Below are positions 1 through 56,812 of a stretch of DNA of 64,000 nucleotides, piece by piece. The notes under the pieces were generated by a model. It saw only the letters and a program-made list of their open reading frames with translations. It was not told the DNA's origin and searched no databases. The stretch is from the NCBI RefSeq assembly GCF_018861145.1, contig NZ_JAHKQT010000013.1:1-64000 (forward strand). The letters run 5' to 3'. Position numbers and translations under genes: made by a program. The first letter of the stretch is position 1, and every line of letters begins with the position of its first letter. This DNA comes from Poseidonibacter lekithochrous (lineage in GTDB: Bacteria; Campylobacterota; Campylobacteria; Campylobacterales; Arcobacteraceae).

Positions 1-3000
1 TGTACCAACAGCAGTAAATGATAGTAAAACTGTTGAAGAGGGTAATACTTCTGGAATTAGTGGAAATGTTATTACAAATGATACAAAAGGAGCAGATGGT
101 GCTGCACTTAATGGCTTCACTTACAATAAAGAAGGTGGAGGAACAGAAACACTAATCTTTAGTGATGCTAATACAACATATACAAAAGATACACCAACAG
201 GAACATTAAAAGTTAACCAAGATGGTTCTTGGGAATTTACTCCAATATCTTCTGTTGATCATGATGATGATGAAACTCTAGGTAGTTTTAGTTATACACT
301 TATTGATGGTGATGGTGATATTTCAAATAGTGCTACAAATACTATAAGAGTAACAGATACAAATGCATCTGCTACAGGACCAGATAGTACACTTGATGAA
401 GATGACTTAACAGATGGAAGTAGTCCAACTCCCACTGATCTAATAGTTGAAAAAACTTTAGATATCACGAAAAGTCAAGATGATATAAGTGATATTAATT
501 TTGATGATGCAACGATAACAGGATTAGAAAATTTAAATTTAAAATCAAATGGTTTAGATATTTCTTATACTTTAAGTAACTTAAATCATACAATCACAGC
601 AAATAATGGCGAAAATAATATTTTTACTATCATACTTGGAAATACAGAAGATTCAACTGGTTTAACTCAAAAATACATATTTACTTTAATAGATACTATA
701 GATCATCCAAATGGAAGTGATGAGAATAATGTTAATTTACCATTTAGTTTTAATATTGCAGATATTGATTCAACAGTAGAAGGAACACCGTTTAATGTAA
801 CAATAATAGATGATGTGCCAACAGCAAATGATGAAATTGAATTAAGTGTTGTTGAAGGTAATATAGCACTAACTGTAATGAATAACCTTCTTGATAATGA
901 TGTAAAAGGTGCGGATAATTTATCAACAATTACAAGCTTTACTTATAAAAATGAGGGTGGTAATACTGTCTCAGGAATTTTTGGTTCTGCTATGGATACA
1001 CAATATGGTTCATTAACAGTAAATAGTGATGGTACATGGAGTTATACTTCAGATGCCACAGAAAATCATACTAATTCTGAAAGTTTAGCAGATAGTTTTA
1101 CATATTTGATTACTGATACTGATGGTGATACTTCAACAGCAACTCAGCTTATAAATGTAACTGATGGAGCAAATCCTACAATTGATAATTTAAATAATAC
1201 ACTTGTAAAAGTTTATGAAGGTGATGCAAAATCAACATTTAATGGAAGTGATGATTATAATGAATCAAATACGGATGCAAATAAATCAACAACTTTAACA
1301 CCTACTCATAAACTTGATTTTACAAAAGGTACAGATGATGCAGGGATTACATCTATTACTTGGGAAGGGATTACAGAGACTGTAACATCAACAGTTTCTG
1401 CAACTATAACAGATGATGATAAAGGAACACTTACTGTAAATTATGATGGAACATGGGAATATACACCACCTGCTACTTATATTCATGCTAATGGGGATGG
1501 TGTAAATAATTTTGAAACAACATTTAGTTATACAGTTACAGATACAGATACAGATGAAGTAACAACTGGAGCTCAAACTATTCAAGTAGATGATACTCTT
1601 GCTTCAATTACATCTACAACACCTTCAATATTAGATGAAGAAAATTTATCTACAGGTACAAATCCAAATACAAGTGAATTAACTAAATCTGGTGATATAA
1701 ATATTGATGTTAGTAACTTAAGTGGTGCTCATGATATTACTTTTGGAACGCAAAGTGATACTACTTTATTAAATACTGCGGTACCAGGTAGTACTTTATC
1801 TTCTTCAGGTGATGATATTTCATATGTAGTTTCTTCTGATGGATATACTTTAACAATGTATACAGGAATGGATAGTACACAAAATCATGTAATGGTTGTT
1901 ACAATAAATAACCCAACATCAGGGACACCAACATATACGGCAGTATTATCTGAAGCCTTTGACCATGAAACTTTACTTCTTGAAAATGGAAATTTAGAAT
2001 TTGATTTTAATATATTATTAACTGATGATGATAATGATGCAAATCCAAGTACTTTTAAAGTATCTATTATTGATGATACTCCATCTGATACACAAACTCT
2101 TACTGTAAATGAAGAGAGCGATACCGGAGTACATGATACGTCAACAACTATCAATACTAATGCAGATGCAACAGGAGGAGTAGGAGGAAATACAACAATA
2201 ACTACACAAGGAACGTATGGACATGCTGTTATAAATAGTGATGGTACTTTAACATATACACCAAGTTATGATGGCACTAACTCTATTGCTACAAACTATA
2301 GTGGGGAAGATACGGTTACTTATACAACTACTTTAGATGATGGTAGTACTAAATCTACAACTGTAACAGTTACTGTTAATCCAATTTCAGATGCTCCTGG
2401 TGTTACTGCTGATAATTCTATTGTATATACTCTTGAAGATACAGCTATTGCATTAGGTCTTAATGCACCGACTGTAACTGATGTAACAGATCAAAATAGC
2501 AGTGGAACAGCCGGAGATAATCCTGAGTTATTAGGTCTTATTACATTAAGTGGAATTCCTAGTGGTGTTGAACTTCAATATGGTTCATCTACATATACTT
2601 CAATAGGTAATGCGATTACAATTAAACTTAGTAATGGAAGTCATGTAAGTGATGTGAGTGGTGAAATATTAGAAATGACAATTGCTGAATTTGAAGCTCT
2701 AAAAGTTCTACCTATATCACAAGATGCAAATGACTTCACAGTAACTATGAGTGTTACAGAGTATGAAGTAGATGATAGTGGTGTCCAAATAACTGGAGTT
2801 GCAGGTGCTACGTCAACAACAACAGTTGATGTTGATGTCTTAGCTGTTACAGATCCAGTTGATATTAAGATAAATGGTTCTGATGTATCATATAAGGCTA
2901 CAGTAAATGAAGATAAAGCTTTAGATTTACAAGCTTTATTAAGTACAGAAGCATTTGCTGATTTAGATGGAAGTGAAAATAGAAGTATTGAAATAAGTGG

Positions 3001-6000
3001 TATTCCAAATGGTACAATGATAAATGGAACAACAATTACAGATGGTACGTATAGTATCCCATTAACTGGGTCTGCTAATGATACAATTCCTAGTTTATCA
3101 CTGACTCCACCACATAATTTTAGTGGTGATATTACAGGAATTACTATAAAACTTGTTGCACATGATACAGATACTGATAGTACACATGGGGATGGTACAA
3201 CAGGAACTACAACTACAAATGATGGAACAGTTGCTAATAGTATTATCTATGATACCTCTGATAGTGTAACTTTAAATATAACAGTTGAGCCAATAGCAGA
3301 TGATATTGCAGATATGAGTGCAAAAACTACAGATGAAGATACCGCAGCAACTTTCTTAAGTGATTTAGACTTAACAGATAAAGATACAGATGGAACTGAA
3401 AGCATTACAAAACTTGTAATTACTGGATTAGATGAAGGAAGTGTTATTGTTTACAATGAAGTTAGTACAACAATTGGAGTTGATGGAACTTTTACAATAG
3501 GTGATGGAACAAGTAATTTAGATATAACTACAATACAAGCCGCAACTATTCTTCCTCCTGCGCATAGTAGTAAAGATATGAGTATCACAGTAACTGCAAC
3601 AGTACAAGATGTAAATGATACTACTAGTACAATTGATTATTCAAAAACATTTGACCTTATTGTAAACCCAATCGCAGAAAGAACAGATAGTGATACAGCT
3701 GGAACAGTTGATAGTTGGGATATTATCACTCAAGGGAGTCATGAATATACAGCAAATGCAAGTGAAGATATATTCTTTGATTTAAATAATGCAGATAGCG
3801 GATTTGGTCTTTCTTTAACAAATGAAGATAGTGTCGAAACAACAACAGTATTATTTTCTCCAAAAGATGGAAGTGGTGCTGATTTAATTGGAACAACCTT
3901 TACATATGATGGAGGAACAACTGTATTTACATATAATGGTACAGCTATTGAAATTCCAAGTTCAGAACTTGCAAACTTACAAGTAAAAGCACCAGCAGAA
4001 TACAGTGGAAAACTAGTATTAACAACTGAAATTAAATCTATAGATTATGATGATGATAGTTCAGATCCTGAAGATGCAGATACTCAAACAAGTCCAGGAG
4101 ATACTTTAACTATTGTAGTTAATCCAGTAGCTGATGCTGTAACATTATCTATTAAACAATCATTTGGAAATGAAGATGCAGGAAGAGATGATGATGGAGT
4201 TTCTGGAATTGCTTTAAATATAGGTGTTTCTTCATCGGATAAAGATGGATCTGAAACTAATGCTTTAAAACTTAGTGATATTCCAGATGGAGCACAGATT
4301 TATTATGAGCGTGATTTAATTACAAAAGATAGCGCCAGTACTATACCAGGAATAACAGTAACTGATGATGTAGAAGGGAGTTGGACTCTTATAATTGATG
4401 AATATAATAATAATAATGATTTAAGATATGTACCAGAAGAACATTCAAATGAAAATATCGTATTAAATGTACAAGCAAAATCTACAGATTCTGTTAATGT
4501 AGATGGATCATTAATAACTGATACTTCAGCTTTTATTCCTACAGATGGTTTAGATATTCTAATAAAAGTTGAAGGTGTAGCAGATACACCAACTTATGCT
4601 ACACCTGTTTATGATAATAGTGTAGATGGTGTTCCCGATGATACATATAATGCTGTTGTAACAGAAGATACAAGTTCTATTTCTTTAAATACATTATTTC
4701 CAGAAGGTGAACCGAATTTTTCATCAGCTGACATATCAACAAATGGAGATATTTCAGAAACTCTTTTTGTAACGATTTCTGATTTACCAAGCGAATTTAC
4801 TATTACTGGAACAGATATTATTAAAATAGGTGATAATTGGGTGGTTGAAGCAAAAAACTTTGACAGTATTAAAGTTGCAGTTCCCAAAAATTATAGTGGA
4901 GAGATAAATCTTAATTTAAAACTTCAAACTATTGAAGATGATGGTGATAAGTTAGAAGATGTAGATCAGCCTGAAATTCCTTTAAAAATACTAGTTACTC
5001 CACACGCTGAAAGTACAGTAAATATCAGTGATTCACAAATTGAAGACTCAGGAGATAATGTACTTGACTTTAGTTTTAATCGAATAGATAGTGATGAAAA
5101 ACTTGAAAGTATTTGGATAAATACAGAAACAATTGATGCAGGTGTATCTCTTGTAACTACTCAAGGTACATTAGAAAAAACTTCAGAGGGAAGTCCTCAA
5201 TGGATAGAATTAGATGTAACAAATAATGAAGTAGAAACTGTTACAGCTAAACTTGATTCTTCATGGAATGACAAATCAGGGGAATATAACTTTGATATTA
5301 GATATAGTGTTTCTGATACTGTTGTAATAGATGGTGGTACAGCTTATACTGATCACCCAAGTGAGTATATTATGGAAACATATACAGTTACTGTAACTCC
5401 TGTTACAGATAATGCTGAATCATCTATTAGCACTATAAGCACTACAGATACAGATAAAGCAACAGTAAGTGGAAATGATACGGATGGATATACAGTTACT
5501 GCAGAAAAAACAGATGTAATAATAAAAGTACCATTTACTCTTGATTCAGTTTCTGATAAAGATGAAAGTGAACAAATTACCTCTATTACAATTTCAGGGG
5601 TTCCTGAAGGGGTTAGTGTGGTTAATGGAACTTATATGGGAGATATATTATCTAATACAGGAACTATTATTACTTCTGGTAAGTGGACTATTCCTGTTGC
5701 TGATGCTGATGCAATTCTTAATGCAGATGGTACATCAAATACAATTGAATTTGAAATTCATGGAGAAATAGTTAATTTCAATGATGAAACAACATTTGGA
5801 ACAATTTCTATTGATACAAAACATCAAGATTCTCCAGATACTGAACTCTCTAATACAGAGTTATTTACTTTAGAAATTACAGAGGATTTTGATGGAACTG
5901 CTGTAACAGAAGGGAATGAGACAGAAGATGAAAATAAAATTGAATTAATACCAAAAGAAAATGTACAACTTACAGAAGATACACCATTTAGTTTGAATAA

Positions 6001-8134
6001 TCTAGTAACAGCAACAGATATTGGAACACAAGGAGATGAAAGTAATTATGCTATTTTAGTTTCTAACTTACCAGATGGATATAATGTAGATGGAACAACA
6101 GAAACTAAAAATGTAGATGGAACTACTTATTATGTATTATATGGAAAAGGTGATGTAGATGATATAAATACATCACTTGCAAATATTACTGTAAATCCAA
6201 AAACAAATGAAAACACTTTAGATGTAGATAAAGTTGATTTGGATATTAAAGTAATAACATATACTAGTGAAACGAATCAAACTAGTTACACAGTAGATGG
6301 AACAGCTTTAGATGCTGAGATAGCACCTGTGAGTGATAAAACAAATATTGCTATATCTGGAAGTGATGTTGCAGAAAGCACAAATCCAAAAGCTCAAACA
6401 ATTACACTGGATTTAAGTAATAACGCAGATGGAACAAGAACAATTATAAAAGATGGAACAGTGTATGTTAAGTTTACAGAAGATTATACTGATACAAATA
6501 TTGAGATGGGTCTTATAACTTATAATGGTGTAAATATTAATACTTTGACTCCTGATGCTAACGGATATTATGCAATTACAGGCATTAATGATTTAGATAC
6601 TGATATATCATTTGAGTATACACCTCCTGCAAATTATTATGGAACATTAATGATAGACTCTAAAGTGACAACACAGGAAAATGTAAATGGTGCAACAGAT
6701 CAGAATGAAGACCCTTACTCAACGACTGAAATAGAATCAGTAGCAAGTAAAACTATAACTATCACTTCAGTAAATGATGGAATAACTCCATTTACACCAA
6801 CAATATCAGGTAATGAAGATGAAATTGCATTATTAAACTTTGGAGGAGGGGAATTAATTGACCCAACAGAGAAAATAATTGGTGCAAAACTAGAGGGTAT
6901 TCCTTTTGGCTATGAAGTCTCTTATGATGGTGAACCTGTAACTGGAACTATAATAGGTCAAGAAAATGGTGAATATATTTATGAATACAATTTTGATGTT
7001 TCATCAGTTGAAGAACTTCAAAAAATAGGAGTAAAAAAAATAGGAGTAGAAGACTTTAGTGGTGAAATCAGTGGAGTAACATTAAGTGTTACAAGTGGTG
7101 AACCTGGAAATGAAACTGCACAAGTTTCTGATTCTTTTAGTATTGTCTTTAATCCTATAGCAGATGCTATTAATATTAATGCAACAAAAACATTTGAAGA
7201 TGAATATGTATGGACAAATGTTAATTTAAATGCAAATGTTACAGATACGGATGGTAGTGAAACTTTTAATATTAGTTTTACTGCTGCTAATGGGGGAGAC
7301 TCATTAGATGATAGTATGTTATTTAAATATAAAGATGAAAGTAGTGATGCTAGTACAATAAGTTCAAGTTTCGATTCTGGAACGAAAACATGGACATTAA
7401 CTGGTATAGCATTTGATAAATTAAATGATATACAACTACTATATAAAGAATATAATGGCGATATTGATGTAATTGTTACTACTGTTGACAAATTAGGTTC
7501 TGTTACTGATGAACTGATTAATACATCTGATACATTTAATTTAAATTTAGCAACTTCTACAAATATTACTACAGGTGATGAAGATAATAAAATCACAACT
7601 TCAGATGCAGGTGTAACTGTAAATGCAGGAGGAGGAGCAAATAGTGTTACAGGTGGTACAGGCGATGATAATATTACTACAGGAGATGACGATGATATTA
7701 TTGATGCAGGATCTGGGGCTGATATTATTAACGCAGGAGCAGGAAATGATACTATAAAATATGATGGTCTTGATATAATTGATTCAGGAGTAGGAACTGA
7801 TACTTTGGCTTTTGATAGTGGATTAGATCTTGATTTTAGTACTTTAGGAAGTGATAATAGTAATAATATTATTAATAATATAGAAAAAATTGATTTATCA
7901 GAAAATGGAAATCATGCAATTACAGAATTAAGTTTACAAGATATTATTGATATGACTGATTCGAATAATATTTTACAAATATCAGGAGATTCTGGAGATA
8001 GTGTTAATTTAACAGATTCAGATAAAGCAGGTTGGACAGAATCAAGTCCAGGATCAGGAGAGTATACAAAAGATAGTAGTGGAACAACTGTTACATTAAA
8101 AATAGACACAGATATAACAACAAATATAATATAA
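1..8134 (+). CDS. Giant RTX/VCBS-type repeat adhesin, C-terminal part (LapA-like), open at left edge
   Basis: Reading frame 2 is open from base 2 to the stop at 8132-8134, so the gene starts left of the window; the GTG at 815 is internal. The visible ~2,710 residues are rich in Thr, Ser, Asp, Asn and Gly. They begin with VCBS-like modules (VPTA-NDE-type starts at 2 and 815), followed by ~130-150-residue beta modules that end in motifs such as NPISDAP (2377), VEPIADD, NPIAERT, NPVADAV and NPIADAI (~7150). Glycine-Asp RTX nonapeptides (GGTGDDNIT, GAGNDTIKY) at ~7620-7770 mark a calcium-binding type I secretion signal region. The downstream tolC, lapG/lapD-like, ABC and HlyD-type genes fit secretion and surface retention. 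The N-terminal retention module and any LapG cleavage site are outside the window. Confidence 0.9.
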   Translation, partial: VPTAVNDSKTVEEGNTSGISGNVITNDTKGADGAALNGFTYNKEGGGTETLIFSDANTTYTKDTPTGTLKVNQDGSWEFTPISSVDHDDDETLGSFSYTLIDGDGDISNSATNTIRVTDTNASATGPDSTLDEDDLTDGSSPTPTDLIVEKTLDITKSQDDISDINFDDATITGLENLNLKSNGLDISYTLSNLNHTITANNGENNIFTIILGNTEDSTGLTQKYIFTLIDTIDHPNGSDENNVNLPFSFNIADIDSTVEGTPFNVTIIDDVPTANDEIELSVVEGNIALTVMNNLLDNDVKGADNLSTITSFTYKNEGGNTVSGIFGSAMDTQYGSLTVNSDGTWSYTSDATENHTNSESLADSFTYLITDTDGDTSTATQLINVTDGANPTIDNLNNTLVKVYEGDAKSTFNGSDDYNESNTDANKSTTLTPTHKLDFTKGTDDAGITSITWEGITETVTSTVSATITDDDKGTLTVNYDGTWEYTPPATYIHANGDGVNNFETTFSYTVTDTDTDEVTTGAQTIQVDDTLASITSTTPSILDEENLSTGTNPNTSELTKSGDINIDVSNLSGAHDITFGTQSDTTLLNTAVPGSTLSSSGDDISYVVSSDGYTLTMYTGMDSTQNHVMVVTINNPTSGTPTYTAVLSEAFDHETLLLENGNLEFDFNILLTDDDNDANPSTFKVSIIDDTPSDTQTLTVNEESDTGVHDTSTTINTNADATGGVGGNTTITTQGTYGHAVINSDGTLTYTPSYDGTNSIATNYSGEDTVTYTTTLDDGSTKSTTVTVTVNPISDAPGVTADNSIVYTLEDTAIALGLNAPTVTDVTDQNSSGTAGDNPELLGLITLSGIPSGVELQYGSSTYTSIGNAITIKLSNGSHVSDVSGEILEMTIAEFEALKVLPISQDANDFTVTMSVTEYEVDDSGVQITGVAGATSTTTVDVDVLAVTDPVDIKINGSDVSYKATVNEDKALDLQALLSTEAFADLDGSENRSIEISGIPNGTMINGTTITDGTYSIPLTGSANDTIPSLSLTPPHNFSGDITGITIKLVAHDTDTDSTHGDGTTGTTTTNDGTVANSIIYDTSDSVTLNITVEPIADDIADMSAKTTDEDTAATFLSDLDLTDKDTDGTESITKLVITGLDEGSVIVYNEVSTTIGVDGTFTIGDGTSNLDITTIQAATILPPAHSSKDMSITVTATVQDVNDTTSTIDYSKTFDLIVNPIAERTDSDTAGTVDSWDIITQGSHEYTANASEDIFFDLNNADSGFGLSLTNEDSVETTTVLFSPKDGSGADLIGTTFTYDGGTTVFTYNGTAIEIPSSELANLQVKAPAEYSGKLVLTTEIKSIDYDDDSSDPEDADTQTSPGDTLTIVVNPVADAVTLSIKQSFGNEDAGRDDDGVSGIALNIGVSSSDKDGSETNALKLSDIPDGAQIYYERDLITKDSASTIPGITVTDDVEGSWTLIIDEYNNNNDLRYVPEEHSNENIVLNVQAKSTDSVNVDGSLITDTSAFIPTDGLDILIKVEGVADTPTYATPVYDNSVDGVPDDTYNAVVTEDTSSISLNTLFPEGEPNFSSADISTNGDISETLFVTISDLPSEFTITGTDIIKIGDNWVVEAKNFDSIKVAVPKNYSGEINLNLKLQTIEDDGDKLEDVDQPEIPLKILVTPHAESTVNISDSQIEDSGDNVLDFSFNRIDSDEKLESIWINTETIDAGVSLVTTQGTLEKTSEGSPQWIELDVTNNEVETVTAKLDSSWNDKSGEYNFDIRYSVSDTVVIDGGTAYTDHPSEYIMETYTVTVTPVTDNAESSISTISTTDTDKATVSGNDTDGYTVTAEKTDVIIKVPFTLDSVSDKDESEQITSITISGVPEGVSVVNGTYMGDILSNTGTIITSGKWTIPVADADAILNADGTSNTIEFEIHGEIVNFNDETTFGTISIDTKHQDSPDTELSNTELFTLEITEDFDGTAVTEGNETEDENKIELIPKENVQLTEDTPFSLNNLVTATDIGTQGDESNYAILVSNLPDGYNVDGTTETKNVDGTTYYVLYGKGDVDDINTSLANITVNPKTNENTLDVDKVDLDIKVITYTSETNQTSYTVDGTALDAEIAPVSDKTNIAISGSDVAESTNPKAQTITLDLSNNADGTRTIIKDGTVYVKFTEDYTDTNIEMGLITYNGVNINTLTPDANGYYAITGINDLDTDISFEYTPPANYYGTLMIDSKVTTQENVNGATDQNEDPYSTTEIESVASKTITITSVNDGITPFTPTISGNEDEIALLNFGGGELIDPTEKIIGAKLEGIPFGYEVSYDGEPVTGTIIGQENGEYIYEYNFDVSSVEELQKIGVKKIGVEDFSGEISGVTLSVTSGEPGNETAQVSDSFSIVFNPIADAININATKTFEDEYVWTNVNLNANVTDTDGSETFNISFTAANGGDSLDDSMLFKYKDESSDASTISSSFDSGTKTWTLTGIAFDKLNDIQLLYKEYNGDIDVIVTTVDKLGSVTDELINTSDTFNLNLATSTNITTGDEDNKITTSDAGVTVNAGGGANSVTGGTGDDNITTGDDDDIIDAGSGADIINAGAGNDTIKYDGLDIIDSGVGTDTLAFDSGLDLDFSTLGSDNSNNIINNIEKIDLSENGNHAITELSLQDIIDMTDSNNILQISGDSGDSVNLTDSDKAGWTESSPGSGEYTKDSSGTTVTLKIDTDITTNII
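7621..7770 (+). repeat. RTX calcium-binding nonapeptide repeats in the adhesin
   Basis: This stretch encodes consecutive Gly/Asp-rich nonapeptides (GGTGDDNIT, then GDDDDIIDA, GSGADIINA and GAGNDTIKY), the parallel beta-roll pattern of RTX proteins. They lie about 120 residues before the C-terminus, where type I secretion substrates carry their export signal. Confidence 0.85.
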
Positions 8135-41679: not shown

Positions 41680-42681
41680 TTATTTTATATATTTATCTTC
41701 CCACTGTTTGAATTCATCACTAAAGTATTTAATTCTAATCTTTTTAAATTCTCTAGATGAATAAAGTGGCATATTTGATTTGTATGATATTTCTTTTTGA
41801 ATACTTTCAATCACAGCTTGTGTATCTTCTTTTGTTTTTCCATGAATCATAGTAAATAGATTATAGTTCCAAGTAGGGTACTTAGGTCTTAAATAACAGT
41901 GTGAAACTGCTGAAAAAGATGCTGCTATCTCACCAATTCTTTCACCTTCTTCACCTTCTTCTATATCCCAAGCTACCATTGCATTTGCACCAAAACCAGC
42001 TTTTCTATGATTTAAAATGCATGCAAATCTTCTCATAACTCCTGAGTCTTGAAAGTCTTGTAATGCTTGGAAAAACTCATCATAAGTAATACCTAGTTTT
42101 TCAACTATTTCTTTAAATGGTTCTGAAACTATTTCAATATCATTTTGAGCTTCTTTGATAATATTATAATGATAAGGTGTTAATTCTATATCTTTAAATT
42201 TCTTTTTTTCAAGAGTTTCTTTTTTATCTTGTTTATTAGTTGTATCTAATTTCACAGATATTTTAAAAAGTTTTAAAGTAGGTAATAAAATATAATCACT
42301 AGCTTTTGTAAGTTTTGATAAAAGCTTTACTGTATCTTCTAAATTGGATTTAGATTCAGGGGAGATTGCTATTGTGAACCAGATATTATACTTATGATTT
42401 CTTTCATAATTATGTGAAATACCAGGATGTGAGTTTAAAATGATTACTGCATCATCTATTTTATCTTCATCAATCTCAAAAGCTACAAGAGAAGATTTAT
42501 AAGTTAATTTTTTCGTATCAAAAATTGCAGATGTCTGTCTAATGATATTATTTTCTTTCTCTTCTTGTAAGATTTTTATTACTTTATCTTCACTTGTATT
42601 TAGCTCTTTTGCAATTTGTAAAAAAGGTCTAATCACTAGAGGAAAGCTCTTTTGTACTCTATATAGTATTTCATCTTTCAT
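41680..42681 (-). CDS. Fused siroheme decarboxylase (NirDL/NirGH- or AhbAB-like)
   Basis: This 333-residue protein consists of two Lrp/AsnC-like halves (~5-155 and ~170-333). Each has a winged-helix start (DEVI-like LNTSEDKVIKILQ; ITYDEFFQALQDF) and an effector fold (HPGISHNYERNHKYNIWFT; SHCYLRPKYPTWNYNLF). This is the pattern of siroheme decarboxylases that make 12,18-didecarboxysiroheme for heme d1. In most denitrifiers the halves are separate proteins. The start is the ATG at 42681 with AGGA upstream; an in-frame ATG 18 bases earlier has none. A Crp/Fnr site lies at -41.5. Confidence 0.88.
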   Translation of the reverse strand: MKDEILYRVQKSFPLVIRPFLQIAKELNTSEDKVIKILQEEKENNIIRQTSAIFDTKKLTYKSSLVAFEIDEDKIDDAVIILNSHPGISHNYERNHKYNIWFTIAISPESKSNLEDTVKLLSKLTKASDYILLPTLKLFKISVKLDTTNKQDKKETLEKKKFKDIELTPYHYNIIKEAQNDIEIVSEPFKEIVEKLGITYDEFFQALQDFQDSGVMRRFACILNHRKAGFGANAMVAWDIEEGEEGERIGEIAASFSAVSHCYLRPKYPTWNYNLFTMIHGKTKEDTQAVIESIQKEISYKSNMPLYSSREFKKIRIKYFSDEFKQWEDKYIK

Positions 42682-42708
42682 ATGTATTCCTATAATCAAT
42701 TTTGAGAA

Positions 42709-42714
42709 AGTATA
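42709..42714 (-). promoter_or_regulatory. -10 element (TATACT on -) of the siroheme decarboxylase unit
   Basis: The hexamer gives +1 near 42702, so the shared site at 42737-42750 is centred at -41.5. Confidence 0.68.
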
Positions 42715-42736
42715 TCAACTATTTTTTCTTTGTGCC

Positions 42737-42750
42737 TTGATATATATTAA
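42737..42750. promoter_or_regulatory. Crp/Fnr-type site (TTGAT-ATAT-ATTAA) shared by two divergent promoters
   Basis: The site matches the Fnr/Nnr consensus at 9 of 10 positions. It is centred at 42743.5, exactly 41.5 bases from the predicted starts of both the minus (TATACT) and plus (TATAAT) promoters. Confidence 0.72.
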
Positions 42751-42772
42751 GTATTTGATTTATAAATTTAAC

Positions 42773-42778
42773 TATAAT
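42773..42778 (+). promoter_or_regulatory. -10 element (TATAAT) of the 126-residue gene
   Basis: A consensus hexamer lies 27 bases before the ATG and gives +1 near 42785, at class II spacing from the shared site. Confidence 0.7.
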
Positions 42779-42804
42779 TTTTCTATGAACTTTAAGGATG
42801 AAAA

Positions 42805-43185
42805 ATGAAATTAAGTAGATTATTAATAGTAGCATTTTTTGCTGTATTTATGTTTTTAGCATTGATGGCTTTAAAAGAGGGAATGCCTAGTAAAAAAGAT
42901 GAAAGAGTTTATCCACTTTTACAACAACACATGCCATATATTTTGGAAAAAAGAGCTGGTGGACTAACTATTAAAAGTAAAATTACAGGTATAAAAGAAA
43001 AACCACCTGCAAAAGAAGTTTTTTTAAGATTAGAACAATTAGAAAAACAATGGGGACAAGAGGCTTTAAAACTTGATGGTATGACTTTATCTATATTTGA
43101 TAAAGATAAAAAAGAAATAGCAAAAATAATTCTTCAAAATGACGCTGAGCTTTCTTGGATTAAAGAGTATTTTGAATTAAAATAA
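42805..43185 (+). CDS. Membrane-anchored periplasmic protein of unknown function, coregulated with heme d1 synthesis
   Basis: This 126-residue protein has one N-terminal TM helix (~5-23) and a soluble alpha/beta remainder without Cys, so it is not a cytochrome. TTAAGGATG-type ribosome site and ATG are clear. It is divergent from the siroheme decarboxylase and shares its Crp/Fnr site. I do not recognise the family. Confidence 0.78.
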   Translation: MKLSRLLIVAFFAVFMFLALMALKEGMPSKKDERVYPLLQQHMPYILEKRAGGLTIKSKITGIKEKPPAKEVFLRLEQLEKQWGQEALKLDGMTLSIFDKDKKEIAKIILQNDAELSWIKEYFELK

Positions 43186-43191
43186 AATATT

Positions 43192-43210
43192 TTGACTTAA
43201 TACAAGTCAA
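43192..43210. promoter_or_regulatory. Inverted repeat (TTGACTT-N5-AAGTCAA) before the Crp/Fnr gene
   Basis: Perfect 7-bp arms lie 62 bases upstream of the regulator start and 6 bases after the previous stop. It could be an operator for the regulator itself or a weak terminator; no T run follows, which favours an operator. Confidence 0.5.
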
Positions 43211-43272
43211 GACAAAAAAGCAAAAATTTAACTATACTTTCTATTAAATAATTTTAAAAATTAGGAGAGTAA

Positions 43273-43902
43273 ATGAAAGTACAGTTAAAAGATGTTTTTT
43301 TATTTAAAGATTTGTGTGATGATACCTTATCTCAAATAGAAGAATTTACAACCTTACTTAAATTATCAAAAGACAATATTCTCTTTTATGAAGGTGACGA
43401 ATCAGAGTATTTATATATTCTTACAAAAGGTATCGTAAAACTTTATAAAACAGCTTCTAATGATAAAGAAATTATTATGAAATATTTTCATTCCAATGAA
43501 TTGATTGCTGAGGTTGCTAATTTTGAAGAAATACCTTATCCAGCAACTGCACAATGTTTTATGGAATGTGAAGTTTTAAGAATAGATTTTGCAAAACTAA
43601 AAGAGATTATATATGATGATCCAAAACTATCATTTATAATACAAAGATCGCTTATTAAAAAAATTAGGAATTTAGAAAAATTAGTATCTTTACATGTTGT
43701 TCTTGATTCAAAAGAAAGAATTGCAAAGTATTTGTGTGAACATACAGAAGATTTTTTTAATACAAAAAATATTATGGTTGCTGAAATATTAAATATTTCT
43801 CCTGAAACGCTATCTAGAATGTTAAGAGTTTTTAAAGATGATGGCTTAATAGATAGTAAGGCAAAAACAGTTGATAAAGAAAAGTTAAAACTTTTCTTTT
43901 AA
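43273..43902 (+). CDS. Crp/Fnr-family transcription regulator 1
   Basis: This 209-residue protein has an N-terminal cyclic-nucleotide-binding fold (~8-118), a dimer helix and a C-terminal helix-turn-helix with [18 protein letters not shown]. The E-x-x-S-R recognition pattern matches TTGAT half sites. The N-terminal Cys cluster of oxygen-sensing Fnr is absent, so an Nnr/Dnr-like or NssR-like NO/nitrite sensor is more likely. It is a candidate regulator of the class II sites in this window. Its end overlaps the convergent chemoreceptor gene by 18 bases. Confidence 0.9.
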
Positions 43903-46803
43903 ATCTTGATTTAATAAGTCATTTAGATTATCAAAAACTGCAATAGTTGAATCTTCTATTGCAGCTGCTGTTTGTCTTAAAGTACTATTATCTGTTCTTA
44001 AAGAATTTTCCAATAAGTATTTTTGTACATTTTTATGTACTTTTTCATGATTTATTTTTAAATCTTCCCATTGTTTTATTTTTGTAAAACTTTTATTTTT
44101 TTGTTCACTAGAACTTATCCATTTCCCCATATTACAAGATTTACAGTCTTTTACTTGTTGGTTTTTAAAGTTGTTTAATTCTGAATAATATTTCTTCTTA
44201 AAATCAATATGGTCATTTTTATATTTTGATACTTCTTTAATTAAATCTATATTTCTAACCATTTTATAATACTTCTTATCAATCTTTGATTGCTCAGTAA
44301 TTTGGATTAAGTTATTAGATAGTATTGATACTTCATTTGATAATATATCAATATTTGAAGCTGTCAGTGCATTTTTTTGAGTTGTTGAATCTAGTCTTGA
44401 GATAGTTTCGTTTATTTGGATAATTTCTATTTCTTGTTCCTTACTATATTTTGTAACATTCTCAATAATATCTTTAGTTTGAGTGATTTTTTCACTCAAG
44501 TTATCATAACCTTTTATCATCTCATTTGCTATTATTTTTCCTTCATTAGATTTAATACTGGCACTTTGAACTAATTTTTTTATATCTCGTGCTGCATTTG
44601 CACTTTTTGAAGCCAAGTTCCTAACTTCTTGTGCAACAACTGCAAAGCCTTTTCCTGCTTCTCCAGCAGTTGCTGCTTCAACTGCTGCATTTAGTGATAA
44701 AATATTTGTTTGAAATGAAATCTGGTCTATTATTGTAATTGCTTCATTAATAGCTTTAACTTTATCATTTATCTCATCCATTGAAGTAGAAGTTTGAATA
44801 GCCCCTTTACTCCCAATACTTGAAGCATTGTTTAGTTCATCTGCAATTTCCATCATTTGAAACATATTTGTATTGTTATTTTTTATATTTGCAGTGATTT
44901 GTTCTAAAGAAGCGGAACTTTGCTCTAAAGAACTTGCTTGTTCTGTTGATGAAATTGTCAGTTCATTAGAAGAGAGTGTTAATGTTTTTGTATTGTTTTC
45001 AAGAGCCATTCCTGAATTTGTAATCATAGCAATTAATTCTGATGAGGATTGTCCTAAAAGAATAGTAGAACTATATAAAGTTCCAAAATCTCCATACATA
45101 CCTTTTATATGTATTTCATCTAACTTAAAATCATAATTACCTTTAGCATAATTATTCAATAAAATATTTATATTATCTATTTTTAATTTTGTTCTATTAA
45201 TCATTTTATTTATAATATGAACTAAAGAAGATAACTCTTTTGTAGCTGCTTCTTCTTTTATAGAATATGCTAAAAATCCATTATTTACTTTTTCCATAAC
45301 ATCGGTAATTTCTAAAACAACTTTTTTATCTTTTTCAATAATCTTTTCAATTTTAGCAATTTGAATATTCATATTTTTTGTCATTTTTGCAAATTCATCA
45401 TTTCCTCTAATCTCTTTTAATTTAATAAAATCTGTTTCTCTTAATGAATATGAGAAGAAAGCATCTAAGTTATCTTGGAATTTACAAATAGATTTGTTTA
45501 TTTTATTTGTAAAAATTGTAATTGTTAGAAAAATTATGAAGAGTAAAGCTATTATGAAACAAACAAATAAATAAATATGAGTATTTAAGTTAGAAATATT
45601 TGTATTAATATTTAAAATAATATCTTCAACTATGTTATCTTTTATTTCTTCTAAAGAGGCTATTCTTTTACTTGATGATTCTTCCCATTTTACAATATTT
45701 GAACCATAAATATTTTTTGATAATTTGATTAAAGCTTTTATTGTTCTTGAATCTTTAAGACTTGACTCTTCTAAATTAGAATTTTCATAAGCTTTAGACA
45801 TATAAGAATCAAATGTTTCTTGAATTTGATTTAATAATAAACTCTCTTCACTTGTAATATTTTTTAATCTTTTATACTTCTTTATATTTCTTAGCATTTT
45901 TGTATGATTTTTTTGAATTTCATTTAACTGTTTATTACTTCCTTCTAATACAAAATTTTTGTAAGAATGAATAATTCCACCATATCCAATAGCTTCTTTT
46001 ATATCAGAAAGAAGCTTGTCTTTTTTCATTTTGATATATATTAATTTTCTAAAACTTTCTAGTTCTAAGAAACCTTTTGAAGTGATTTGTTTTTTATAAA
46101 AATCATATTGTTTTATTGATAAGTTTTTAACTAAAATATCTAAATAAGAGTTTTGTGAAGAAACAGAAAATAAAAGATTATTGTAATCATTAGTTGATAT
46201 TGAGTTACGATTAAAAATATTTTTAACAATATTTTTTTCATCGTAAGCATTTTCAATTACATTGACTAAAGATAAGTATGCTTGTGATAGTTTTGATAAA
46301 TCATTTTCAGTTGAATAAACTAATAAATCATCAAAAAAAGAGATTAGACTTTTATTTAAATCATTATAATAGTTAATTATTGAACTTGAATCAATTCTTA
46401 ATTTTTCTGATCTTTCTCTTATAAATTTTATCTTTGAAATATTATTTTTAAAGATATTTATCTTTTTAAGTAGATTATTATCTCTTTTTGCAAGTTCAAA
46501 TTCATCTAAAAAGATATCTAGGTTAGCTAGGACTTTATTACTTATGTTTATTTGTTCAGTTACTTCTGTTTTACCAAGTTCTCCATAACTATCTAGGTAA
46601 GAAATTATTAAAGCTCTTTCTTTTTGTAGACTAGTTAAAAGCTTTGAAACTCTTACTGTAAAATCAATATAGCTTGATGTTGTACTTATTCTTTGTTCTT
46701 TTTCGAACTTGTCATAAACTGAAAGTGAAGATAAAATCAATATAGCCATAATTGGTAAAGTCAATATTAATTTTATTTTATTTTTTAATTTTAAGTTACT
46801 CAT
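43885..46803 (-). CDS. Chemoreceptor with nitrate/nitrite-sensing (NIT-like) domain and C-terminal zinc-binding (CZB-like) domain
   Basis: This 972-residue protein has a TM helix (~9-26) and a large helical periplasmic region (~30-400). Its start ([20 protein letters not shown]) matches the NIT domain. A second TM (~410-432), HAMP-like stretch and signalling hairpin ([39 protein letters not shown]) follow. The C-terminus (~865-960) holds a CZB-like module with CNMGKWI and nearby His ([18 protein letters not shown]). Such receptors steer toward nitrate or nitrite and may read zinc or oxidant stress. It lies in the denitrification cluster. Confidence 0.86.
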
Positions 46804-55139: not shown

Positions 55140-56147
55140 ATCTTCTATATGGCAACTTTTTAAAAGTTTATCTAATTCATTTTTTAGTAATTGTAGTTTT
55201 TTAGTTGTTTTTATTAGGTCTTCATTTGATTGAATGATTATATTTTCTGTTTTATCAAGTTTATTTGTGATTTGCTCTGAATATTTTAAATCATTTATTG
55301 TTTTATCGAACTCATAAGTGATTTCTTCAAGTTTTATTGAAGCATTTTTTGATTGCTCAATTGCTTTTGAAGAGTAATCCATTGCTGAGTTTATTTTACT
55401 AATAAAACAATTTATAGTATCACTTGCTTCAACTATCTCTTTTTCTGCTTCTATTTTGATAGGTTCTATATGATTATTATGTGAACTTTGGGCTAGTTTT
55501 TTTGTATATTCAAAGAATTTTCTTACATTATCTTCCATTGCTTTTAATTGCACAAAGCTATAAAACATAAGTGAGATGATTGTTAGACCAAAGATATATT
55601 GAAGATATCTAATATAATCAGCTTTTTGTTCACTATAAATTGTATACATAGAAACTAATTTATCAACTTCTTCTAATAATGTATTATTTGCAATATGAAT
55701 ATTATTAACAATATTTTTTAAAGCAGCTTCATCTTTAGAGTTCTTATGAATAATATTGCTTCTAAAGTTATTGATATTTGTATGAAAACTATTCCATAAA
55801 ATATCAACTTTTGATATTTGCTTTGCAATTAAGTCAGTAGGAGCTTTTTGAATACCTATTAAACTATTTCCATCTTTTAAAGAGTTTAGATTATATATAA
55901 ACTCAATAGTTGCAGAATCTAATTCATTTATAAGTGTATTGTCATTGTTTTGATATAAATAAAAGATATTTTTAGAGATTTTTTGTGTTAGCATTCTCTG
56001 TTTTCCTACAATATTTATCACAAGTGCATCTTTTTTATTTTTCTCATTTAAATAAATAGTACTTAGAATTATACATGTCATTAATACAATAAATAAAATA
56101 CCTATTAGTTTTATTTTTCTACTTATAGTATTTGTTTCCATACTCAT
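55131..56147 (-). CDS. NarX/PilJ-type membrane sensor without kinase or chemotaxis output domain
   Basis: This 338-residue protein has TM helices at ~11-31 and ~183-203 flanking a helical periplasmic domain. Its VGKQRMLTQKISKN segment resembles the nitrate-binding P-box of NarX/NarQ and PilJ. The cytoplasmic part (~205-338) is only coiled coil: no histidine kinase and no MCP signalling tip. Its start overlaps the end of the Crp/Fnr gene by 4 bases, so the two are coupled. It may hand a nitrate/nitrite signal to a partner protein. Confidence 0.82.
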   Translation of the reverse strand: MSMETNTISRKIKLIGILFIVLMTCIILSTIYLNEKNKKDALVINIVGKQRMLTQKISKNIFYLYQNNDNTLINELDSATIEFIYNLNSLKDGNSLIGIQKAPTDLIAKQISKVDILWNSFHTNINNFRSNIIHKNSKDEAALKNIVNNIHIANNTLLEEVDKLVSMYTIYSEQKADYIRYLQYIFGLTIISLMFYSFVQLKAMEDNVRKFFEYTKKLAQSSHNNHIEPIKIEAEKEIVEASDTINCFISKINSAMDYSSKAIEQSKNASIKLEEITYEFDKTINDLKYSEQITNKLDKTENIIIQSNEDLIKTTKKLQLLKNELDKLLKSCHIEDNK

Positions 56148-56812
56148 ATTCCTACTCCTTTAAATGCATATTCTAAAGCATTCTTATCTTTAATTTTAAC
56201 TTCACTATTCTCTATTTCTATGCTTTCATTTCTTGATAACTTTTTTAAAACTCTAGATAAGGTTTCAGGCTGGATATGAAGCATAAAAGATACTTCTTGA
56301 CGTTTGAGTTTATTAAACATTTCTAGGTCGTTACTTAGCATAAAGGCAACTTTAGCAGTTGCATCAAATACTAATTCTCTATTTACAATACATTGTAATT
56401 GATGTGTTTTATCAAGTAATATTTCCATTAATTCAATAGTTAGAATATTTTTAGATAAAAATAACTCTTGGAATTTCTCAAAGTTTATTGATAAAACTAC
56501 AGAATCTTCCACAAACTCAGCATTTGAAAAACAATAAATATCATTTTGTTTAATTGATGAAAGTTCAGAAATCATTGAATTTTTATGTATGTGATAAAGA
56601 AAAATTTCATTATCAAACTTATCTAGCTTGAAAATTTTAAGTAGTCCAGAAACCAAAAAAAGAAGGTTTTTGCTTGTATCACTTTCATAGTATAAAATAG
56701 TGTTTTTTTGGTATTTTGTTACTATAGAGATTGAAGCTATTTGTTGTTTTTGTTGTTTTGTTAATGTATTAAAGAAACTTATATTGTTTATTTTATTTAG
56801 AGGAGTCAACAT
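56144..56812 (-). CDS. Crp/Fnr-family transcription regulator 2
   Basis: This 222-residue protein has a cNMP-binding-like fold (~15-125), a dimer helix, and a helix-turn-helix with QPETLSRVLKKLSRNESI. The E-x-x-S-R pattern again suits TTGAT half sites. It lacks an Fnr-type Cys cluster. It sits between the nor-nir operon and the second TrpD2-like gene, so NO/nitrite control is likely by context. Confidence 0.9.
   Translation of the reverse strand: MLTPLNKINNISFFNTLTKQQKQQIASISIVTKYQKNTILYYESDTSKNLLFLVSGLLKIFKLDKFDNEIFLYHIHKNSMISELSSIKQNDIYCFSNAEFVEDSVVLSINFEKFQELFLSKNILTIELMEILLDKTHQLQCIVNRELVFDATAKVAFMLSNDLEMFNKLKRQEVSFMLHIQPETLSRVLKKLSRNESIEIENSEVKIKDKNALEYAFKGVGI

Follow-up and report, generated by a model that had tools for sequence, protein, structure and literature searches.

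The divergent promoters of nirDL, a heme d1 gene, and of a gene for a 126-aa protein in Poseidonibacter lekithochrous probably share one bidirectional class II site, at which a single Crp/Fnr-family dimer of the DNR/Nss type would be centered at -41.5 of both promoters and activate the two genes together. Comparison with related loci supports well the activation of both genes by one dimer. The features on which this reading rests lie in the window (the whole stretch of 64,000 nucleotides that we analyzed) as follows:

41680–42681, minus strand: nirDL, a fused siroheme decarboxylase (AhbA and AhbB halves) of heme d1 synthesis (NF040708, 5.7e-79; NF040707, 3.6e-74; PF17805; PF22451)
42702, minus strand: predicted nirDL transcription start (A), 41.5 from the site center, placed from the position of the -10
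42709–42714, minus strand: -10 hexamer TATACT of the nirDL promoter, 22 nt from the site edge, identical in hexamer and spacing in genus relatives
42737–42750, center 42743.5: putative Crp/Fnr-type site common to both promoters, TTGAT-ATAT-ATTAA (TTGATATATATTAA), conserved in position in relatives
42773–42778, plus strand: -10 hexamer TATAAT of the promoter of the 126-aa gene, 22 nt from the site edge, identical in spacing in relatives
42785, plus strand: predicted transcription start (A) of the 126-aa gene, 41.5 from the site center, placed from the position of the -10
42805–43185, plus strand: 126-aa protein, conserved as a neighbor of nirDL across the order, in which a small alpha/beta domain follows a single N-terminal helix that is probably a membrane anchor
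43197–43210, plus strand: second putative class II site, TTAATACAAGTCAA, upstream of the Crp/Fnr gene and 22 nt from its TATACT
43233–43238, plus strand: -10 hexamer TATACT of the Crp/Fnr gene promoter
43273–43902, plus strand: Crp/Fnr-family regulator of 209 aa (PF00027, PF13545) that lacks the FNR-type N-terminal cysteine cluster, the candidate activator

The placement of the site between a minus-strand TATACT and a plus-strand TATAAT at class II positions, proposed in a sequence-only reading of this DNA, proved exact to the base, and both gaps measure 22 nt. The two hexamers occupy positions -12 to -7 of the predicted, unmapped starts and are separated by 58 bp (42715–42772) with the site in the middle. 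Both are good -10 elements, and the site overlaps the -35 region, as class II activation requires. The intergenic region (42682–42804) contains one exact site, predicted to serve both arms. Its right half-site, ATTAA and not ATCAA, counts against this prediction. The predicted starts are 83 bp apart and the core promoters do not overlap. Ribosome-binding-like sequences precede the start codons of both genes (AGGAA before the ATG at 42681 and AAGGA before the ATG at 42805), and a TTG at 42699 lies just 3 nt past the predicted nirDL transcription start.

This geometry suggests how one dimer could act in two directions. A DNR/Nss-type dimer, most likely the product of the 43273–43902 gene, would bind TTGAT-N4-ATTAA so that each of its faces lies at -41.5 of one promoter; either subunit could therefore be the downstream one that contacts RNA polymerase. 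Under denitrifying conditions, nirDL (leftward) and the 126-aa gene (rightward) would be switched on together. Class II structures and the spacing of the two promoters place the upstream alpha-CTD of each polymerase at approximately -20 to -25 of the other promoter. Because this position falls on the other promoter’s spacer and the core promoters do not overlap, partial interference is plausible, and we would expect both promoters to be active with such interference rather than to alternate strictly.

The profile matches bear out the earlier assignment of the leftward gene to heme d1 synthesis. The 126-residue protein, described earlier as unknown, matched no family in Pfam or NCBIfam. Its structure was modeled with confidence (mean pLDDT 88.7), and the model returned no PDB fold match at E 0.001. 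The protein is present in 26 of 60 relatives, has five invariant residues (P44, G53, I56, W83, and L88), and accompanies heme d1 genes across many of the order’s families. Beyond the Crp/Fnr gene, the window continues with nirE, nirF, nirJ, nirC, a cd1-type nitrite reductase, nor genes, and a second Crp/Fnr gene; the nirS and nor names are inferences from sequence and gene order. At the other end of the window (815–8134) is a repeat-rich protein of 2439 aa, probably a large secreted adhesin, followed by apparent secretion-system genes.

In most relatives, the rightward gene encodes a 190-aa precorrin-2-dehydrogenase-like (cysG-like) protein and the 126-aa gene follows. The cysG-like gene has been lost from the window, which brings the 126-aa gene directly rightward of the site. 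We found no significant protein match to a precorrin-2 dehydrogenase elsewhere in the genome (none at E 0.01) and one marginal NAD_binding_7 match (C2:105000). Eight other nirDL-carrying genomes (G002, G007, G008, G060, G063, G076, G080, and G105), like this one (G000), yielded no cysG-like gene. The position of the cysG-like gene opposite nirDL at the shared site suggests that the ancestral form coupled siroheme formation to siroheme decarboxylation. With consecutive steps of one pathway on its two arms, this form would have had a clear reason for coupling.

To place the arrangement in the order, we collected nirDL loci from 42 of 104 genomes of the family (Arcobacteraceae) and 136 of 398 genomes of an order sample and read the DNA upstream. 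Loci were scored as S when a single site had -10-like hexamers at 21–23 nt on both sides and as D when two separate sites each stood 21–23 nt from their own -10. Among 114 divergent loci, with a cysG-like or 126-aa gene opposite nirDL, 81 were S and 15 were D, and the rest had one arm or none. The S state is present in eight families, which upholds the earlier claim of one dimer for both promoters as far as sequence comparison reaches; in the two-site close relatives, each site is 22 nt from its own -10. Within the window’s own family, single sites with 22 nt on both sides occur in G008 and G009, in G105, and in a six-genome Aliarcobacter-type group. We had considered that the single site might be a unique oddity among two-site relatives, an idea that was dropped after the family and order surveys.

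The spacing is conserved beyond chance. Both arms fell at 21–23 nt in 78 of the 102 loci with exactly one perfect-consensus site, compared with a mean of 1.3 and a maximum of 6 when the flanks were block-shuffled, a comparison that overstates the number of independent events because the loci are related to one another. The distance was exactly 22 nt on both sides in 47 of these loci, and any other distance occurred in none or one. Families whose nirDL sequences diverge by more than 40% share the two-sided signal. Furthermore, the right-hand arms of 83 shared-site loci have the consensus GnTAnnnT, which matches the mapped sigma70 box of Campylobacter jejuni, gnTAnaAT (PMC3847290). These spacing statistics across relatives indicate that the shared site is an ancient bidirectional class II element, kept at the nirDL locus of at least eight families.

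The same distance recurs elsewhere in the genome. Pattern searches for TTGAYNNNNRTYAA followed by TATAMT at 12–32 nt gave 10 matches genome-wide, 7 of them at exactly 22 nt (approximately 0.5 expected with even gaps). Besides the 126-aa gene, the genes preceded by class II sites of this type include napA and those for a hemerythrin, a FeoA-like protein, and a small cytochrome c. In the window, the 22-nt spacing is also found upstream of the crp/fnr gene, nirC, and the ORF preceding norC. The 22-nt spacing at these other sites suggests that -41.5 is the normal distance in an apparent denitrification/anaerobic regulon. A strict two-sided pattern is present once in this genome, at the 42737–42750 site, and in 13 of the 398 genomes of the order, against 2 genomes for a reversed control. 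Four of the 13 are the nirDL promoter itself and three more are beside cysG-like genes near nirDL. In three genomes (loci L226, L227, and L229), the cysG-like gene has a changed partner (a cytochrome-c-peroxidase-like gene or a transporter) and the strict two-sided class II arrangement is kept. A divergent FeoA-like/Fur-like pair (L064, L221) has one TTGAT-type site between its genes; the distances from this site to the -10s are 22 and 17 nt in the present genome and 22 and 22 nt in genome G033. The identical 14-mer is also found at 46031–46044, within a chemotaxis-receptor gene and most likely by chance.

The PET[LF]SR-type helix of FNR/DNR proteins reads TTGAT-type half-sites. Three of the four Crp/Fnr-type proteins encoded in the genome have a helix of this type, among them the PETLSR form, with the same recognition residues. 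The candidate activator combines a cNMP-like domain, a Crp HTH domain, and an E-x-x-S-R recognition helix with the lack of a cysteine cluster, all features of DNR/Nss-type regulators. The first 35 residues contain one cysteine in the 43273–43902 protein and none in the 56144–56812 protein and the C16 paralogue; identity with FNR, an Fe-S oxygen sensor, is ruled out for the three candidates by their lack of the cluster. The nearest solved relatives of the 43273–43902 protein include CRP and Pseudomonas DNR. This protein is the strongest candidate for the activator among the three, given its position, the class II site of its own gene, and the finding that many genomes of another family have a Crp/Fnr gene no more than approximately 1 kb from nirDL. 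The site of its gene is contained in a perfect inverted repeat (43193–43211, TTGACTTAATACAAGTCAA) with two 7-base arms around 5 bases, and autoregulation is possible. A 2019 review on Campylobacterota states that no FNR orthologue is encoded and that Arcobacter butzleri is without Crp/Fnr proteins (PMC6682613). Of the 398 genomes sampled from the order, 357 encode Crp-type HTH domains, among them every listed genome of the Aliarcobacter-type genus; this conflicts with the review’s statement on A. butzleri.

The relatives also allow the history of the promoter to be traced. Every outgroup row of the nirDL tree, from all outgroup families, is S, and we rejected the two-site form as ancestral on this ground. 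In our proposal, the order ancestrally had the single site, which the Arcobacteraceae split into two sites 23 bp apart. The D state arises within a clade of 32 Arcobacteraceae rows and S reappears there in four places, for a minimum of five S/D changes (bootstrap range 5–5); the starred branches alone force three. It would be less economical to suppose that D arose independently several times or that the intergenic region recombined. Left sites in D loci retain a good TTGAT half near their own promoter, whereas the half farther away has drifted to AACAA.

The window’s single site is probably a secondary re-fusion of two older sites. The nearest relatives of the window genome in the Arcobacteraceae include Poseidonibacter ostreae, and its close relatives carry the D form of the genus, with two sites 23 bp apart (start to start). 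On the tree, supported groups of 4 (99/91), 6 (98/81), and 7 (100/99) rows enclose the window and otherwise contain D rows exclusively. The alignment of the window with G006 contains a single 23-bp gap at the site, on repeated CTTGA. Removal of the 23-bp interval from G006 leaves 9 differences from the window in 104 bases, and G003 has CCTTGAT at both ends of the interval. The nested position and the one clean gap both point to re-fusion, which may have occurred by deletion of 23 bp between CTTGAY repeats. G006 holds two nirDL loci (L031 and L033), one with an upstream region that matches P. ostreae; this may be bin contamination (5% reported). We suggest tentatively, at somewhat less than even chances, that the heme d1 locus of the order toggles repeatedly between a one- and a two-operator bidirectional promoter via 23-bp splits and fusions at the operator. 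If so, the two states would differ in whether two pathway arms compete for one activator dimer, and the loci would form a natural series in which the costs and benefits of sharing an activator could be measured.

Coincidence in AT-rich DNA is a poor account of these observations. TANNNT-like hexamers and partial TTGAT sites are indeed common, and the 14-mer alone is unremarkable (65 one-mismatch matches to TTGATNNNNATYAA in the window versus 59 expected from shuffles). However, the conservation across the order, the genomic excess at 22 nt, the shuffle test, and the 13-versus-2 control all contradict a chance origin, to which we give almost no weight. Nor do we think it at all likely that the bound protein combines activation in one direction with repression in the other. 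FNR does this in E. coli, where it binds at -41.5 of nrf and represses acsP1, a weak divergent promoter (PMC5434802). At the nirDL locus, both -10s are at an activating distance and the two genes belong to the same conserved gene group. It is improbable, too, that the site serves one promoter only and that the other -10, unregulated or under another factor, is left over from a two-site ancestor. The window probably does derive recently from such an ancestor, and a 23-bp deletion between the repeats keeps both spacings automatically, without selection. However, both -10s stand at 21–23 nt in the single-site loci of seven other families, an indication that one site suffices for long periods, and the same-family single-site genomes described above also argue against a service to one promoter.

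A more serious alternative, though still an unlikely one, is that both promoters are activated but strictly one at a time, as the sequence-only reading had allowed, with polymerase on one face excluding the other so that the genes alternate within a cell. The overlap of each complex’s alpha-CTD position with the other promoter’s spacer would favor such exclusion. Furthermore, CRP activation in one direction blocked the divergent RNA at bidirectional promoters of E. coli (PMC12825309). Those promoters share a -10, however, whereas the nirDL locus has separate core promoters on opposite sides of the site. At a comparable single-site pair of Dinoroseobacter, both arms are induced together (PMC5398030), although these population data are compatible with alternation too. 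Activation of both arms by one dimer, with partial interference, is the reading that we prefer. One-site and two-site close relatives at the same gene pair offer a direct test of whether one dimer serves two polymerases at once. Little is known about the regulation of respiration in free-living Campylobacterota; this locus suggests that a Crp/Fnr regulon with constant class II spacing spans the order.

The regulators with the closest likeness within the phylum are the Nss proteins of Wolinella and Nitrosophilus, Crp/Fnr proteins of the DNR type that act on TTGA-N6-TCAA sites (PMC11539149). The Nitrosophilus sites are 48–49 bases from the predicted starts, equivalent to a center at approximately -41.5 (PMC11539149). 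In contrast, NssR of C. jejuni reads TTAAC-N4-GTTAA with A180/Q181 (PMC1274295), residues that differ from the ETLSR-type helix of the window proteins.

Promoter arrangements of this kind are already known, as two precedents demonstrate. In Listeria monocytogenes, where PrfA boxes are centered at -41.5 of their target promoters, one palindromic box of a Crp/Fnr-family protein is common to the divergent plcA and hly promoters (PMC3443378); the subfamily, half-site (TTAAC), phylum, and genes are different. In the alphaproteobacterium Dinoroseobacter shibae, FnrL/DnrD sites between nirS and nosR2 and between hemA3 and dnrE are at -39.5/-41.5, and both arms are induced (PMC5398030). The likeness is one Fnr/Dnr-type site between divergent denitrification or tetrapyrrole genes; the differences are the unequal spacings and another gene pair. 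Control of divergent E. coli promoters by a single CRP site, with one activator dimer acting in two directions, was reportedly described by El-Robh and Busby in 2002. Eleven divergent promoter pairs of E. coli have one CRP site (PMC3105977). The bidirectional promoters with a shared -10 are different in design, with two starts on one symmetric -10 (PMC12825309) rather than two separate -10s. Divergent flagellar promoters controlled by CtrA in Rhodobacter sphaeroides rely on one site (fliL2/fliF2) or two (flgB2/fliI2) and vary in this among relatives (PMC6180460), as the nirDL locus does, but CtrA is a response regulator and the geometry is another. The nirDL locus adds to this kind its gene pair, an equal -41.5/-41.5 geometry conserved across an order, and an apparently repeated change from one operator to two and back.
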